Assembly: GCF_900186465.1 (NCBI RefSeq)
Contig: NZ_LT891957.1
Coordinates: 184,328 to 248,327, forward strand
Length of the DNA stretch: 64,000 nucleotides
DNA from: Centipeda felix
Lineage (GTDB): Bacteria; Bacillota; Negativicutes; Selenomonadales; Selenomonadaceae
Direction: 5' to 3'
The notes under the pieces were generated by a model. It ran no database searches, had not been told where the DNA came from, and worked only from the letters and a program-made list of their open reading frames with translations. A program made the translations under genes and the position numbers. Below, piece after piece: positions 8,011 to 45,152 of this stretch. Every line of letters starts with the position of its first letter. Within the stretch, counting starts at the first letter, position 1.

Positions 8011-9121
8011 AGTGCACCACATCCTTCAAAATATTGCGTGAGCCGTCTGCCGTGAAGACATTGACACGCTTTGCATTGGGGCGCAGACAGACCGTATCCC
8101 CAACCTCCAGCTGCTGCTCAGCATGGCCGAGATCCTGTGAGAACTCGATGGATGCCTGATGCGGCAGGATCATCTCATCGGCGAAGCCGAGGCTGTAGTT
8201 GATGTACTTGCCGAGGAACACCTTTGTGCGCACCTCACACGAAAGTCCTTCGGACTGAATGGACAGTTCCTCGGGGCGCACGGAGACGACGACCTCCATT
8301 CCGTCCTCTGCCGCATCCTCGATCCCCTCCATGGGCATCTCCCAGCCATTGCGGAAGACGACGCTCGTCTTCTCTCCCGCCCGCTTCACCGTGGCGCGGA
8401 AGAGATTGGAGTGCCCGATGAAGGTCGAGACAAAGATGTTCCACGGGCGCTCGTAGATGGTCTGCGGACGCGCCGTCTGCTGGATCTCGCCCTTGTTCAT
8501 GACAGCAATGCGGTCGGAGATCGAGAGTGCCTCCTCCTGATCATGGGTGACATAGACCGTCGTGATGCCAACCTGTTTCTGTACCGCGCGGATCGCGGAA
8601 CGCATCTCCACGCGCAGCTTTGCATCGAGATTGGAAAGCGGTTCATCCATGAGCAGTACGCTCGGATGGATGACGATGGCACGGGCAAGTGCAACGCGCT
8701 GCTGCTGACCGCCCGAGAGACGTTCAGGAAGGCGATCCTGATAGTCCGTGATCTGTACCACGTCGAGGATTTTATCGACGCGCTCCTTCATCTCCGCCTT
8801 TGGCACCTTACGCAGCTTCAGCCCATATTCTACATTCTCCCGCACGGTGAGATGCGGGAAGATCGCATAGCTCTGGAACACCATGCCGATGTTGCGCTGA
8901 TGCGCGGGAATGTCATTGATGCGCTTCTCGTTGAAGCAGATGTCGCCACCCTCGATGCTGTTGAATCCTGCGATCATGCGCAGGAGCGTCGTCTTGCCGC
9001 AGCCTGAGGGACCAAGCAGGGTAAAAAACTCTCCATTTCGGATATGCTCCGTGATCCCCGGGATAATGGTGAGATCACCGTATTTCTTGACGGCATTCTC
9101 GATCTCTATCGCTACGCTCAT
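8003..9121 (-). CDS. ABC transporter ATP-binding protein with TOBE domain
   Basis: 372 residues. Walker A GPSGCGKTT, Q-loop, signature LSGGQQQRVALARA, Walker B LLMDEPLSNLD and switch His in THDQEEAL are all present. The last third is a TOBE-type regulatory domain (VRPEELSI). It is the energy subunit for the fused permease and the binding protein in the same operon. ATG at 9121 is chosen by GGAGG seven bases upstream; a GTG two codons earlier is possible. It is the first gene of the importer operon, following an AT-rich leader (9122-9246) with a TATAAT box but no convincing -35. Confidence 0.94.
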   Translation of the reverse strand: MSVAIEIENAVKKYGDLTIIPGITEHIRNGEFFTLLGPSGCGKTTLLRMIAGFNSIEGGDICFNEKRINDIPAHQRNIGMVFQSYAIFPHLTVRENVEYGLKLRKVPKAEMKERVDKILDVVQITDYQDRLPERLSGGQQQRVALARAIVIHPSVLLMDEPLSNLDAKLRVEMRSAIRAVQKQVGITTVYVTHDQEEALSISDRIAVMNKGEIQQTARPQTIYERPWNIFVSTFIGHSNLFRATVKRAGEKTSVVFRNGWEMPMEGIEDAAEDGMEVVVSVRPEELSIQSEGLSCEVRTKVFLGKYINYSLGFADEMILPHQASIEFSQDLGHAEQQLEVGDTVCLRPNAKRVNVFTADGSRNILKDVVHYE

Positions 9122-40295: not shown

Positions 40296-40306
40296 TCGGA
40301 GAGACG

Positions 40307-40354
40307 GGGCTGTTGAACGAAGGTAAATTTATCTTTGTGTAACGGCCTTTTTTT
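40307..40354 (+). terminator. Terminator of the tRNA pair
   Basis: Long hairpin: GGCTGTT/AACGGCC outer stem and AAGGTAAA/TTTATCTT inner stem, followed by seven T. Confidence 0.85.
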
Positions 40355-40499
40355 CGTATAGGGATGGATTGACGAAACAACGATAACGGAAACTTACACC
40401 TCTACAGAAATAGGGTACACGAACAAGGACGATAGTGACCATTACACCCACAGACTTGAACTTCACACCCGTATTCTTGATTAAAGAATCTTCATACAC

Positions 40500-40537
40500 A
40501 AAAACCTCGGACTTCCTATTCTCAGTCCGAGGTTTTT
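40500..40537. terminator. Bidirectional terminator
   Basis: Perfect 13-bp stem AAAACCTCGGACT/AGTCCGAGGTTTT with T-runs on both strands; mainly serves the 40553-40825 gene. The stretch 40355-40499 between the two terminators shows no gene. Confidence 0.85.
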
Positions 40538-40552
40538 GATTCTAAAATATTC

Positions 40553-40825
40553 TTAGCCGATCTTCGCCGCAAGCACATCTGCCTCGTACTCCTTCGTCGC
40601 CATACCGAGATAAGTCAATCCATAGAGATTGGCAAAACGATGCACTGTGTATTCACCCGCTCCCATCGCCCATGTCTCAGGGGATGCCCCTTGAAAAAGG
40701 GAAGCAAGATTCCAGGAGAGACTGCCCTTCTCCACAGGATCATAGAAACGATGAATAAACATTCGCCAAAACACAGCGCAAACATCCAAGGATGCGATCA
40801 TACCGGAACAAACAAAAAGCTGCAT
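40553..40825 (-). CDS. Small protein of unknown function
   Basis: 90 residues. AAGGAGGTGGT precedes the ATG at 40825, and codon use is normal, so translation is likely. The N-terminal 25 residues are hydrophobic and aromatic (MQLFVCSGMIASLDVCAVFW), the rest amphipathic with FYDPVEKGSLSWNLASLF. I do not recognise it. It follows the cupin remnant by 31 bases and may be the last member of that former operon or itself a fragment. Confidence 0.5.
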   Translation of the reverse strand: MQLFVCSGMIASLDVCAVFWRMFIHRFYDPVEKGSLSWNLASLFQGASPETWAMGAGEYTVHRFANLYGLTYLGMATKEYEADVLAAKIG

Positions 40826-40856
40826 ACCACCTCCTTTCACTTCGATGCCCCTCTCC

Positions 40857-41044
40857 TCAAAGTGCTTCGTAATTTTTATCCGTCGCCAGTTCACACCATT
40901 CGTTCGAGGCGTCTGTCCTCGGCACCTCGACAGCAATATGGCTGAACCAACGATCTACCTGTGCGCCATGCCAATCCTTCACGTTCGGTGGAATACGACA
41001 TCACCCACCCGGGGTCGACGTGCCGCCCTGCCCTCCTCCGGCAT
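40857..41044 (-). pseudogene. Remnant of a cupin-domain gene (C-terminal part, frameshifted)
   Basis: Reading minus-strand frames in turn gives EEGRAARRPRVGDVVF, then after a frame change near 40990 IPPNVKDWHGAQVDRWFSHIAVEVP and TDASNEWCELATDKNYEAL-stop. These are consecutive pieces of the C-terminal half of the cupin proteins often encoded beside aldo/keto reductases and flavodoxins. The N-terminal half is missing: the remnant begins four bases after the aldo/keto reductase stop. It is a non-functional decay product. Confidence 0.7.
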
Positions 41045-41047
41045 ATC

Positions 41048-41905
41048 TCAATCGTGAATCCTGAGCTCGTGCAGCCATTTCACGAACGCAGGGTCGTCGT
41101 GGTTGACGATCTCGCTGTGCCCGAGGTCGAGCTTTGCGATCTCTGCCATCTCCGCCTCGTTCAGTGCAAAGTCCCAGATATCGAGATTTACCGCGATGCG
41201 CTCAGCACGCACGGACTTCGGCAGGATCGACACGCCACGCTGCGTATTCCAGCGGAGTGCCACCTGCGCCGCCGTCTTTCCGTACTTCTCCCCGATCTTC
41301 GTCAGTACGGGATGCGTAAAGATGCCGTGTTTGCCCTCGGCGAGCGGTCCCCATGCCTGCGGCACGACACCGTACTCCTTCATCGTCGCGAGTGCCGCCT
41401 CCTGCTGAAAGAACGGATGCAGCTCCACCTGATTCACCATTGGCTTTATCTCCACCGTCTCACAGAAGTTCGCAAGCACGGCAGGATAGAAGTTCGACAC
41501 GCCGATCGCCCGAATCTTCCCCGCGTGGTGCAGCTCCTCGAGCCGCCGCCACGCGCCGAAGAAATCCCCCATCGGCTGATGAATGAGGTAGAGATCGAGA
41601 TAGTCCAACCCGAGTTTTTGCAGGGAACGCTCAAACGCCGTACCCGCCGCCTCATAGGAGATATCCTGCACCCAGAGCTTCGTTGTGATGAACAGTTCCT
41701 CACGCGGCACACCCGACTTTGCAATCGCCGCACCCACCGCCTCCTCGTTCTGATATGCTGCCGCCGTGTCGATCAGGCGGTAGCCCTGCCGAATCGCCTC
41801 GATGGTCACGCGCTCACACTCTGCAAGGTCGGGAATCTGGAACACGCCGAAGCCCTCAAGCGGCATCATTACACCATTATTGAGTTTTACATTTTCCACT
41901 GCCAT
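41048..41905 (-). CDS. Aldo/keto reductase (2,5-diketo-gluconate reductase-like)
   Basis: 285 residues, NADPH-dependent TIM barrel. The catalytic set is visible: Asp in YRLIDTAAAYQNE, Tyr in the same segment, Lys in FITTKLWVQD and His in LYLIHQPMGDF. The NADPH loop ILPKSVRAERIAVNLDIWDFAL is intact. Substrate unknown; such enzymes detoxify aldehydes. It is the intact member between the cupin remnant and the flavodoxin, 12 bases after the latter. Confidence 0.93.
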   Translation of the reverse strand: MAVENVKLNNGVMMPLEGFGVFQIPDLAECERVTIEAIRQGYRLIDTAAAYQNEEAVGAAIAKSGVPREELFITTKLWVQDISYEAAGTAFERSLQKLGLDYLDLYLIHQPMGDFFGAWRRLEELHHAGKIRAIGVSNFYPAVLANFCETVEIKPMVNQVELHPFFQQEAALATMKEYGVVPQAWGPLAEGKHGIFTHPVLTKIGEKYGKTAAQVALRWNTQRGVSILPKSVRAERIAVNLDIWDFALNEAEMAEIAKLDLGHSEIVNHDDPAFVKWLHELRIHD

Positions 41906-41917
41906 TTGAAATCCTCC

Positions 41918-42571
41918 TTAATATCCTTGTTTCGACATCCATTCATAGAGTGCCGTCCGCGCCTCCTCGGGCGACTTCTGCGCGATATGTCCCTGGAGTG
42001 CAAAGCCCTCCCTGACATCCGCCTTTGTCACGTCCGCAATCGACCGCTGCGTATCAGAGAGCCCGCTCCCTTCATGTGTGCAGAACGGCAGGATGATCTT
42101 GCCCACGAAATTCTCCCGATCGAGGAAGGTGTAGACAGGCATCGGCATGTCGCTCCACCAGATCGGATAACCGAGAAAGACGACATCGTACTTGCTGAGA
42201 TCGGGCAGCTCGCCGACGATTTCAGGACGGGCGTTTTCTTCCTTCTCTTGCTTGGCGGCTTCTGTCGCGGGACGGTATTCCTTCGGATACGGCTTGACGG
42301 TCTTGATTTCAAAGAGGTCACCGTGCGTGCGTTCGGCGATCATCTCTGCAAGAATCTTTGTGTTTCCCTTCTCGATGTAGCCGACACCGCCTGTGTTTTC
42401 GTCGGCGCGCGAGAAGTACACGACAAGGACACGCTGATCGCTTCGTGCAGATGCTGTCGTCTGTGTTTCTTTCTGTGCAGAAGTATCTGCGCCCGTTTGC
42501 GCATTGCCTCCGCCGCACGCTGTCAGCAGCAGCATCATCGTCGTCATCAGGATTGTCAATAGGGTTCTCAT
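41918..42571 (-). CDS. Flavodoxin-like lipoprotein
   Basis: 217 residues. Lipoprotein signal peptide with LLTAC near residue 19, then a Gly/Thr/Ala-rich linker and a flavodoxin domain of the four-family type: VLVVYFSRADENTGGVG replaces the classical P-loop, with VVFLGYPIWWSDMPMPVYTFL and PFCTHEGSGLSDT. Exported flavodoxins like this bind FMN and probably serve quinone or redox reactions outside the membrane with the neighbouring reductases. Confidence 0.9.
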   Translation of the reverse strand: MRTLLTILMTTMMLLLTACGGGNAQTGADTSAQKETQTTASARSDQRVLVVYFSRADENTGGVGYIEKGNTKILAEMIAERTHGDLFEIKTVKPYPKEYRPATEAAKQEKEENARPEIVGELPDLSKYDVVFLGYPIWWSDMPMPVYTFLDRENFVGKIILPFCTHEGSGLSDTQRSIADVTKADVREGFALQGHIAQKSPEEARTALYEWMSKQGY

Positions 42572-42619
42572 GTCATGACCTCCATTTCATTCGATTCCCA
42601 TATGTTTACTTTGCCAAAT

Positions 42620-43945
42620 CTATTGCGCAGGTGCGAGCAGTTTCAATAATTCTGCATCGTGGTGATGTACGAGCTTCGTATCAGCGTCAAACATCATGGT
42701 TGCGCCTCCTTGCAGTGTATAGGCATCTCAATTCGGCATGCTGGGTGCTTCGGGTTTTCCCGTGCGGGCGAAATTAATCCAAGCGCGGCTCATCTGCGCT
42801 TCGAGTTTCTTTGCCTCCGCGCTCCCGCCGATGCTTTTCTCCGCGCGGTCAATGTTGTGAAAAACAAAGGGGATCTCTGCCGTGTGGTAGGACATATAGA
42901 CTCCGCCCATCATCGGCGAATCCCACGCGAAGAGATAGGCGTAGACAGGTGCGCCGCCCTGCATTGCCTTGTGATCCATGATCTCTTTGATCGGCAGGCA
43001 GATCATCGTGTCGACATAGAGTGCATCTGCACGTTTCTTCTGCGGATAGGCGCGCAGGAATGCCGCCGCGATTTTCTCCGCCTTATCGCCGTATGCGTCC
43101 TTGAGACGACGGTCAACTTCCTCTGTGCTCCAGGTATTCTTGTTGTTGGACTGTGCTCTCTCCATCTCCATGATGTCGGAGAAATTCGTCCACTCCGTCC
43201 GATTCGAACCAATGAGCAGTGGGATGTCCTTCCCTGCGACGGCAAAGCTGTCTGCCGTTACAGGATTCGTCGGCATGAAGTCGCCGTCCACCACAGGCTC
43301 CCAGCTGAGCCCGTAGCCCGATCCCAGTGCACGCGGTACTTGGAACTCCTCGCCCGCCTGCTGCAGAGCGGTGTTCGATGCCTCCGTGAGGCGGTCGTAC
43401 GGAATCGTCTGAAGTTCTTCCACGCGGTCTGCGTCAAACCCCAGGTTCCTCAGCGTCAGCTCCGTCACACGCGCCGCCTCCTTTGGCATGAATACGGGTC
43501 CCATGGTCGCAGTTGCACCGCTCTCGACGATGCCCTTGTGAAACAGCCCCTTTGCATAGGGCGTCGTCATCAGTGCGAGCACTTTTGCACCGCCGCCCGA
43601 CTCACCGAAGATCGTGACGTTTGCAGGGTCGCCGCCGAACTGTGCGATGTTGTCCCGCACCCAGCGCAGCGCGTCAACGAGGTCATAGATACCGACGTTG
43701 GCGGAGTCCCGATACTTCTCCCCGTAGGCGGAGAGATCCATATAGCCGAGCACATTCAGACGATGATTGACAGAAACAACGATAACATCGCCCGCGCGGC
43801 TGAGATTGGCACCGTCATAGGCGAAAATCTCGGCAGACGAACCTGCGGAGAATCCGCCGCCGTGCAGCCAGACCATGACGGGGCATTTCTTGCCGTCCGC
43901 GATGCCGGGCGTCCAGATGTTGAGATTCTGACAGTTGTTGTCCAA
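42620..43945 (-). pseudogene. Type B carboxylesterase pseudogene (N-terminal deletion, internal UGA)
   Basis: The body is a clear carboxylesterase: CQNLNIWTP, oxyanion HGGGFSAGS, nucleophile TIFGESGGGA, then the acid and His regions (SYHTAEIPFVF). About 90 N-terminal residues normally preceding CxNLN are absent: the frame begins at 43945 with a TTG and fuses upstream to unrelated plus-strand sequence. At 42728-42730 an in-frame TGA interrupts MPN-stop-DAYTLQGGATMMFDADTKLV, where the family usually has Trp; the frame then continues to TAG at 42620. Both lesions suggest loss of function. Confidence 0.8.
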
Positions 43946-44080
43946 GCATCCATCGACTACATCGACTGGAAGCAGGGATTCTATGACGATGTGCTCTCAG
44001 GGCGCACGCCCTACATCAGCAATCTTCTCCTGAATGAAGCAGATGCAGAATCTGCAGAAGAGAGCTCTGCACATGGGTGA
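43940..44080 (+). pseudogene. C-terminal remnant of a divergent regulator, probably MerR family
   Basis: The plus-strand frame reads ASIDYIDWKQGFYDDVLSGR then TPYISNLL, ending at TGA 44080. This has protein character, unlike the shadow frame to its left. It resembles the C-termini of MerR-type regulators (TIDYIDWKxxFYDDVLSG), from memory of the family and not from a search. The N-terminus is gone where the esterase N-terminus is gone. A terminator follows immediately. Confidence 0.5.
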
Positions 44081-44095
44081 TTCTATAAGAAAATA

Positions 44096-44139
44096 ACTGC
44101 TGCACAAGGATACGTTTCCTTATGCGGCAGTCATTTTTT
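44096..44139 (+). terminator. Terminator after the regulator remnant
   Basis: Hairpin ACTGCTGCACAAGGA/TCCTTATGCGGCAGT (two wobble pairs) followed by CATTTTTT. Confidence 0.75.
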
Positions 44140-44223
44140 AAAGCTATTTTTAGGATATATTCCTGCATGCGAGCGGCATAGTCATATATCGTTTTGAACT
44201 CTTTGTCGATCGGAATACTTCAT
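44140..44223 (-). pseudogene. Remnant of a HEPN-domain toxin gene
   Basis: ATG at 44223 overlaps the MNT stop (ATGA). MKYSDRQRVQ then, after a one-base frame change, KTIYDYAARMQEYILKIAL resembles the start of HEPN toxins. The frame then runs into a terminator, so only about 30 residues survive. Confidence 0.5.
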
Positions 44224-44424
44224 GCCACCAAAACCTTTTCTTTCATAATTGTTTTGTAGAAATTACTGTCCGGGTTGACTTCACCGATCTCAAAAACATC
44301 TACTTTTTTCTCTAACGTTTCTCGCAAATCCTCTGCCAGAGCAAAAATCATCGTTCGCTTAAACTGTTCTCCACCGTAAACCAAAAATCCAAATCAATCC
44401 GACGATCTTCAATCGTGCAACAGC
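44220..44424 (-). pseudogene. Remnant of an MNT-type nucleotidyltransferase antitoxin gene
   Basis: Two frames join: CTIEDRRIDLDFWFTVENSL and, after a shift near 44345, MIFALAEDLRETLEKKVDVF then EIGEVNPDSNFYKTIMKEKVLVA-stop. The ending FYKxIMKExVLV and its four-base overlap with a HEPN-like start are typical of HEPN/MNT pairs. The N-terminus with the GSxxRG catalytic motif is missing. Confidence 0.55.
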
Positions 44425-44439
44425 CCCATTTATTCTTGC

Positions 44440-44559: not shown

Positions 44560-44584
44560 CGCGCTCTTCGCGCTGACAAAGGAA

Positions 44585-44613
44585 AGTATAGCGAAAAGCA
44601 GACAGCATGTCAA
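44585..44613 (-). promoter_or_regulatory. Promoter for tRNA-Ala
   Basis: Minus strand TTGACA, 17 bases, TATACT. The -35 overlaps the stop of the 44610-44810 frame. Confidence 0.88.
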
Positions 44614-44810
44614 TAGCTGCCAAAAATAAATACCTCCGCCTCATCTTCGAGTGCCGACATGAAATAGGACATGGCCGCATCATGATACTTGTATGCAGGA
44701 TCACGTAGATATCGGAAGAAATCCTGCCGTGTCACGCTCTGCAATCCGAAGGCCCTCTTAAACGGATCCAGCACCTGTTCAATTAGTGTAAGATGGTGGT
44801 AGTGGTACAT
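44610..44810 (-). CDS. Hypothetical 66-residue protein
   Basis: AAGGAGCATCCT precedes the ATG at 44810. The sequence (MYHYHHLTLIEQVLDPFKRA... ending EDEAEVFIFGSY) is soluble and His/Tyr-rich at its start. No family recognised. It lies just downstream of the terminator of the putative antisense RNA and has no evident promoter. Confidence 0.45.
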   Translation of the reverse strand: MYHYHHLTLIEQVLDPFKRAFGLQSVTRQDFFRYLRDPAYKYHDAAMSYFMSALEDEAEVFIFGSY

Positions 44811-44846
44811 AGGATGCTCCTTGATCAATGTTGTCTCGTCTCCAAC

Positions 44847-44869
44847 AAAAAAGACAGCGCAAAGCTGTC
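44847..44869 (-). terminator. Terminator of putative antisense RNA
   Basis: Minus-strand hairpin GACAGC/GCTGTC with a 5-base loop followed by six T. It ends a leftward transcript that would cross the small-peptide gene. Confidence 0.75.
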
Positions 44870-44874
44870 ATATA

Positions 44875-44883
44875 TGATATACT
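44875..44883 (+). promoter_or_regulatory. Extended -10 promoter for the small peptide
   Basis: TG-A-TATACT, an extended -10 without a good -35. Transcription would start near 44890 at the left inverted-repeat arm. Confidence 0.5.
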
Positions 44884-44938
44884 GTCAAAAGGTGCTGCCA
44901 AGACGGTAGGCGGTCAATCTTAGCCCCTAGAGAGGGCG

Positions 44939-45013
44939 ATGCTGATGACGATCAACGATTTACTCGCGTTGCTTCTCGTGACGCTGTTTATCCTCGTCGT
45001 TCTAAAAGCATAA
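44939..45013 (+). CDS. 24-residue hydrophobic peptide, putative type I toxin
   Basis: MLMTINDLLALLLVTLFILV followed by VLKA: a single predicted membrane helix with one C-terminal Lys, the make-up of type I toxins. ATG 44945 is eight bases after AGAGGG and is the better start; 44939 is too close. The ribosome site is partly sequestered by GCCC (44923-44926) pairing with GGGC (44934-44937). A hairpin terminator follows the stop. No homologue could be checked. Confidence 0.6.
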   Translation: MLMTINDLLALLLVTLFILVVLKA

Positions 45014-45015
45014 GA

Positions 45016-45053
45016 AAGCCCGCCTAGCCCCAGCAAAGTTTAGGCGGGTTTTC
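45016..45053 (+). terminator. Terminator of the small-peptide message
   Basis: 11-bp stem AAGCCCGCCTA/TAGGCGGGTTT with a 14-base loop, then TTCT. The T-run is short. Confidence 0.7.
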
Positions 45054-45111
45054 TAAACCAAAAGTCTAAATGGGGCTGCTGACCGTCTGCCGGCAGCACC
45101 TTTCTGTGTCT

Positions 45112-45140
45112 ATTATAATCTCTCTCCTCGTTTTCGTCAA
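45112..45140 (-). promoter_or_regulatory. Strong promoter for the antisense RNA
   Basis: Minus strand TTGACG, exactly 17 bases, TATAAT. It is downstream of the guaA stop and points away from guaA, so the only thing it can transcribe is the antisense strand of the small-peptide gene. Confidence 0.8.
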
Positions 45141-45152
45141 ATCGTTCTTCTC

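Follow-up and report, generated by a model that had tools for sequence, protein, structure and literature searches.

The remains of a carboxylesterase gene and of a regulator gene meet, inside to inside, at positions 43939–43944 of the window, the whole 64,000-nucleotide stretch of Centipeda felix DNA analysed here (G000:C15:184328-248327, from a 2.4-Mb genome assembled in 17 contigs). They were very probably joined by a single illegitimate deletion that removed about 3.96 kb between TGTCCA repeats, in a displaced and decaying operon copy. The locus is a redundant second copy of a MerR-regulated accessory operon and carries further lesions besides this deletion: HEPN and MNT remnants, a cut FMN reductase gene and a premature stop in the esterase. 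Coordinates are collected in Table 1.

Table 1. Features of the displaced operon copy and its flanks (window coordinates)
Feature	Position	Strand	Remarks
Deletion junction, TGTCCA 6-bp microhomology common to the esterase and merR ancestors	43939..43944	.	By comparison with relatives
Carboxylesterase (PF00135) remnant	42728..43944	-	Without residues 1-128 of 570 and the last 36
MerR-family regulator gene, 3' end (residues 99-144 of 144), DNA-binding part gone	43939..44080	+	
HEPN (HepT-like, PF01934) gene remnant	44134..44223	-	About 317 bp of C17 sequence absent at 44134-44138
MNT nucleotidyltransferase gene remnant, C-terminal half only	44220..44396	-	Right limit of similarity to C17
Flavodoxin (PF12682) gene, open	41918..42571	-	99.5% identity to C17 copy
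Aldo-keto reductase (PF00248) gene, open	41048..41905	-	99.3% identity to C17 copy
NADPH-dependent FMN reductase homologue, C-terminal remnant and sequence after it	40436..40752	-	Coding 40553-40752; 80-86% identity to other loci
tRNA-Pro and tRNA-Arg, left flank of displaced segment	40141..40295	+	
tRNA-Ala, right flank of displaced segment	44485..44560	-	

Identity of the two gene remnants

The plus-strand frame that runs from 43939 to a stop at 44080 corresponds to the C-terminal end of a gene that is intact on contig C17 of the same genome (96% identity over 47 aa, E 3.2e-26), and the two are identical at 140 of 142 bases. Since a Pfam scan of the 44-aa fragment alone matched no family, its assignment to the MerR family comes from the intact copies: the 144-aa ortholog of the C17 gene in the relative G013 matches both MerR_1 (PF13411, E 1.7e-14) and MerR-DNA-bind. 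About two-thirds of the gene (residues 1–98 of 144) are gone from the window, including nearly all of the stretches that matched MerR domains; the N-terminal DNA-binding domain is present in the G013 relative and absent from the window fragment. An earlier reading made from the letters of the window alone (hereafter the sequence-only reading) had taken this frame for a regulator C-terminus, as is borne out here.

On the minus strand, the esterase frame 42728–43945 is open over 405 codons and matches PF00135 (E 4.2e-78) from profile position 82 onwards. Coverage of the profile extends over positions 82–476 of 515, versus 5–501 for the G013 relative, and thus falls short of an intact member of the family. 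Aligned with the 570-aa G013 protein, the frame starts at residue 129, the first 128 residues being absent; the sequence-only reading had placed this loss at about 43945, 1–6 bases from the join. The TTG ‘start’ of the open reading frame (43943–43945) overlaps the junction. At the other end, a premature stop replaces Trp 535 and removes the final 36 residues.

Two long plus-strand frames cross the same region. The 473-aa frame 42659–44080 is mostly antisense to the esterase, with the regulator making up its last 46 codons only, while a 533-aa frame at 40961–42562 is a mechanical frame antisense to the aldo-keto reductase and flavodoxin genes. Both are prone to mis-annotation.

Organization of the operon in relatives

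We observed the same gene order in three relatives, Selenomonas massiliensis (L003/G005), G013 and G140, the last belonging to another genus of the family: after a divergent MerR gene come hydrolase 1, hydrolase 2, cupin, esterase, flavodoxin, aldo-keto reductase, hydrolase 3 and FMN reductase. In S. massiliensis and G013, hydrolase 1 has 358 aa, hydrolase 2 371, flavodoxin 217, aldo-keto reductase 285, hydrolase 3 337 and FMN reductase 149. The cupin has 302 aa in S. massiliensis and is represented by a 263-aa frame only in G013. The 570-aa carboxylesterase is open in G013, and the S. massiliensis copy has an in-frame TAG (L003 8016–8018), another lesion of the same gene, which lies a few codons from the end of the window deletion. 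G140 holds the whole gene set, with a MerR protein of 80% aa identity and a cupin matched in pieces.

MerR and hydrolase 1 lie on opposite strands in S. massiliensis, in G013 and on contig C17. The sequence-only reading had pictured a divergent regulator/esterase pair. The regulator is indeed divergent from the operon that holds the esterase, but its direct neighbour is the alpha/beta hydrolase 1. The PF00135 esterase comes fourth among the operon genes, so that three whole genes lie inside the missing 3,964 bp. The synteny check proposed by the sequence-only reading, for an intact merR-type gene divergent from a carboxylesterase-flavodoxin-reductase operon, had a positive outcome: relatives have such a gene, with carboxylesterase, flavodoxin and aldo-keto reductase in the order and orientation of the window. 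The window copy shares order and orientation with the operons of the three relatives, at about 80–97% DNA identity per aligned block. Their gene sets are complete as to order, with the region between MerR and hydrolase 1 preserved, in contrast to the window copy, which is displaced and gutted.

The TGTCCA repeat at the junction

At the join, the esterase ancestors read ..CAGTTGTTGTCCATCGGG.. and the MerR ancestors ..CACTGCTGTCCAAGCATCC.., while the window reads ..CAGTTGTTGTCCAAGCATCC... The word common to all is TGTCCA, at 43939–43944. Its two copies are 3,964 bp apart in G005 and likewise in G013, and a single copy stands at the window join; in the more distant G140 the exact MerR-side TGTCCA was not found. 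In a control on G005, with breakpoint pairs drawn from up to 200 bases on each side, 286 of 159,981 (0.18%) showed microhomology of at least 6 bases. The two flanks of the junction fall within a single colinear locus in G005 and in G013, and are also colinear in G140. An inversion or translocation as origin of the join was ruled out by the ancestral order and orientation of both halves. A 6-bp repeat at both ancestral breakpoints, together with colinear relatives, makes a single deletion the simplest history.

Such a deletion would have taken esterase codons 1–128, the cupin gene, hydrolases 1 and 2, the divergent control region and the DNA-binding part of the regulator. The displaced copy would once have carried the whole operon, and the missing segment would have been lost in one event, by slipped mispairing or by end joining. 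The proposal of the sequence-only reading that one deletion removed both 5' ends and the shared control region agrees with the spacing, the repeat and the relatives; the event was, however, larger than envisaged and extended over the three whole genes as well.

Distribution of the junction and of the operon genes

A 221-base probe across the junction gave matches in 37 of the 189 family genomes. Among the places listed, with at most four candidates scored per genome, the only match spanning the junction was the genome's own; all other listed matches covered one side only. The sequence-only reading had named as grounds against it the same junction in relatives with functional, expressed proteins, or a plus-strand peptide without homologues: the junction recurs in no other genome among these places, and the peptide has homologues.

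The esterase occurs in 4 of 14 genus genomes, this one included (in G003 as a C-terminal piece only). MerR matches were found in seven of the 14 and were strong (95–100%) in four. This patchy presence indicates that the operon is accessory. Among 80 loci around distant esterases, some with short flanks where absence is a weak result, a MerR match at E 1e-8 was found only in S. massiliensis (L003). Loci L004 and L005, with esterases of 67–68% identity, keep parts of the neighbourhood and show no MerR match, while locus L166 (G040) has a MerR gene of 61% identity and several operon genes, with no esterase match at E 1e-8. Among the papers listed on NmlR, esterases and MerR and on Selenomonas pseudogenes, no title or abstract start concerns this locus.

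A displaced copy between two tRNA genes

The displaced segment (40302–44428, as delimited against G003) lies between tRNA-Arg and tRNA-Ala, with about 4.2 kb separating these two genes in the window. In all 12 genus relatives examined, the two tRNA blocks are separated by 24–104 bp (roughly 85–115 bp from tRNA to tRNA); the count omits a thirteenth relative, G004, in which the flanks are on different contigs. Beyond MerR, about 317 bases of the C17 sequence are missing; the similarity then picks up at 44134 and ends at 44396, taking in what is left of the neighbouring HEPN/MNT pair. Hydrolase 3, located between FMN reductase and aldo-keto reductase in relatives, is missing. The products of the window copy would be non-functional.

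Several observations concern the edges and interior of this segment. Sequence like the ~128 bp beside tRNA-Arg (40306–40433) is present five times in G013, once only in part, with 82–87% identity, and may represent a small repeat element that borders the inserted segment. For the ~295 bp at 40753–41047, there was one short weak match among the genus-search matches listed. On the right, a second rearrangement was seen at 44561–45150: the sequence that follows tRNA-Ala in G003 matches only G000:C17:376109-377505 in this genome, at 74%. The guaA gene is near tRNA-Ala in the window and about 180 kb from it in G013.

The C17 locus and the mosaic history of the copy

Deletions aside, the operon and its flanks on C17 are colinear with those of G013 and G003, and C17 was therefore taken as the original place. 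Its MerR gene is intact; most of its esterase was lost through a different deletion, about 2.2 kb long, whose breakpoint is the same in G003. This other deletion joins the cupin gene to the esterase C-terminus (8041–8130 of locus L101 in C17, 7780–7875 of L104 in G003). A direct origin of the window locus from C17 in its present form was ruled out, C17 being without the esterase stretch 42898–43944.

Identity to C17 is 97–100% per 100 bases in the aldo-keto reductase and flavodoxin genes, versus 68–96% to G013, G005 and G140 in the esterase stretch 43248–43944. Over 440 codons the window esterase differs from that of G013 with dS 0.28 and dN 0.05; between G005 and G013, dS is 0.02. Genes more than 99% identical to C17 beside a diverged esterase show that the window copy combines alleles of different age, and the diverged stretch would be a sign of recombination between alleles. 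As a consequence of this mosaic identity, no genome examined equals the exact pre-deletion copy, and we infer its spacing from the relatives.

Alternative origins of the junction

Could the junction be older than the insertion? It is possible, if rather doubtful, that an acquired or recombined piece already had it on entering the tRNA site. The mosaic identity and the diverged esterase do point to a partly foreign origin of the copy, but the junction was found in no other genome among the places listed for the 189 family genomes, and this history bears on the time and place of the deletion rather than on its nature. We consider it unlikely that successive deletions emptied the middle of the operon and the last one left the present join: losses elsewhere in the operon (~2.2 kb in C17 and G003, ~317 bp around HEPN, and hydrolase 3 in the window copy) give this stepwise course some plausibility, but the 6-bp repeat at both presumed ancestral breakpoints is accounted for by one event.

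That an assembly artefact joined unrelated pieces is very improbable. Part of the segment has a near-identical second copy on another contig, which can mislead assemblers; however, the esterase stretch 42898–43944 is absent from C17, the MerR fragment differs from C17 at 2 of 142 bases, and the site sits inside a 347-kb contig. It is scarcely credible, finally, that the junction is an adaptive fusion or a new promoter arrangement with functional, if truncated, proteins. The esterase frame, open over its 405 codons, keeps HGGG and GESGG stretches (whose meaning is taken from general knowledge), and its dN/dS to relatives is 0.17–0.18, a low value that can nevertheless stem from selection predating the deletion. 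Against function, this esterase is missing its N-terminal end, PF00135 positions 1–81 and the last 36 residues, the regulator fragment is without nearly all MerR-domain stretches, and promoter-like sites in the window locus are at chance level (2 found versus 1.3 expected). One weak site at 42646–42617, considered as a surviving flavodoxin/aldo-keto reductase promoter, was also at chance level and was rejected.

Discussion

Deletion between short direct repeats is a class of illegitimate recombination, with independence of RecA among its criteria. The window junction resembles it in that one copy of a 6-bp repeat is left at the join and the intervening segment is gone; it differs in that the repeat is short, the pre-deletion copy is reconstructed from relatives and the mechanism is a presumed one. 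With a single deletion in the displaced copy as the preferred reading, the core of the sequence-only reading stands. It was incomplete as to the setting: the locus is a displaced extra copy with further lesions, and an intact regulator is kept on C17.

NmlR loci have been described in which a MerR-family regulator is divergent from adhC-estD, a detoxification operon with an esterase (PMC4776306). The present operon is similar in having a MerR regulator divergent from a hydrolase/oxidoreductase operon, the best NCBIfam match of the G013 regulator being NmlR (NF041849). This match reaches 69.9 bits, below the cut-off of 175, and in contrast to the described loci there is no adhC or estD among the operon genes scanned. 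A cysteine is conserved in the NmlR clade as described (Cys54 in Haemophilus influenzae, Cys52 in Bacillus subtilis; PMC4776306), and the G013 regulator has Cys53 by position count in the translation alone. By analogy, carbonyl or thiol stress may be what the operon responds to. Loss of control in the window copy probably costs little, because C17 has an intact MerR gene and near-identical flavodoxin and aldo-keto reductase genes.

One could also imagine that the tRNA-Arg/tRNA-Ala gap is a landing site in this lineage for incoming or duplicated accessory operons, whose redundant copies recombine with alleles of other species and are then stripped by short-repeat deletions, with repeated loss of the esterase favoured; we regard this broader scenario as quite improbable. 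Only four genus genomes have any part of the esterase gene, and three separate lesions of it were found among them.

Taken together, this is the ordinary gene decay of a redundant accessory operon, and a worked case in which a deletion junction read from raw sequence was borne out by relatives, with little import beyond this genome. For annotation it carries a warning: neither the 405-aa esterase nor the 473-aa plus-strand frame is a complete gene. That a few Selenomonas relatives have repeatedly lost this one esterase offers a minor lead.
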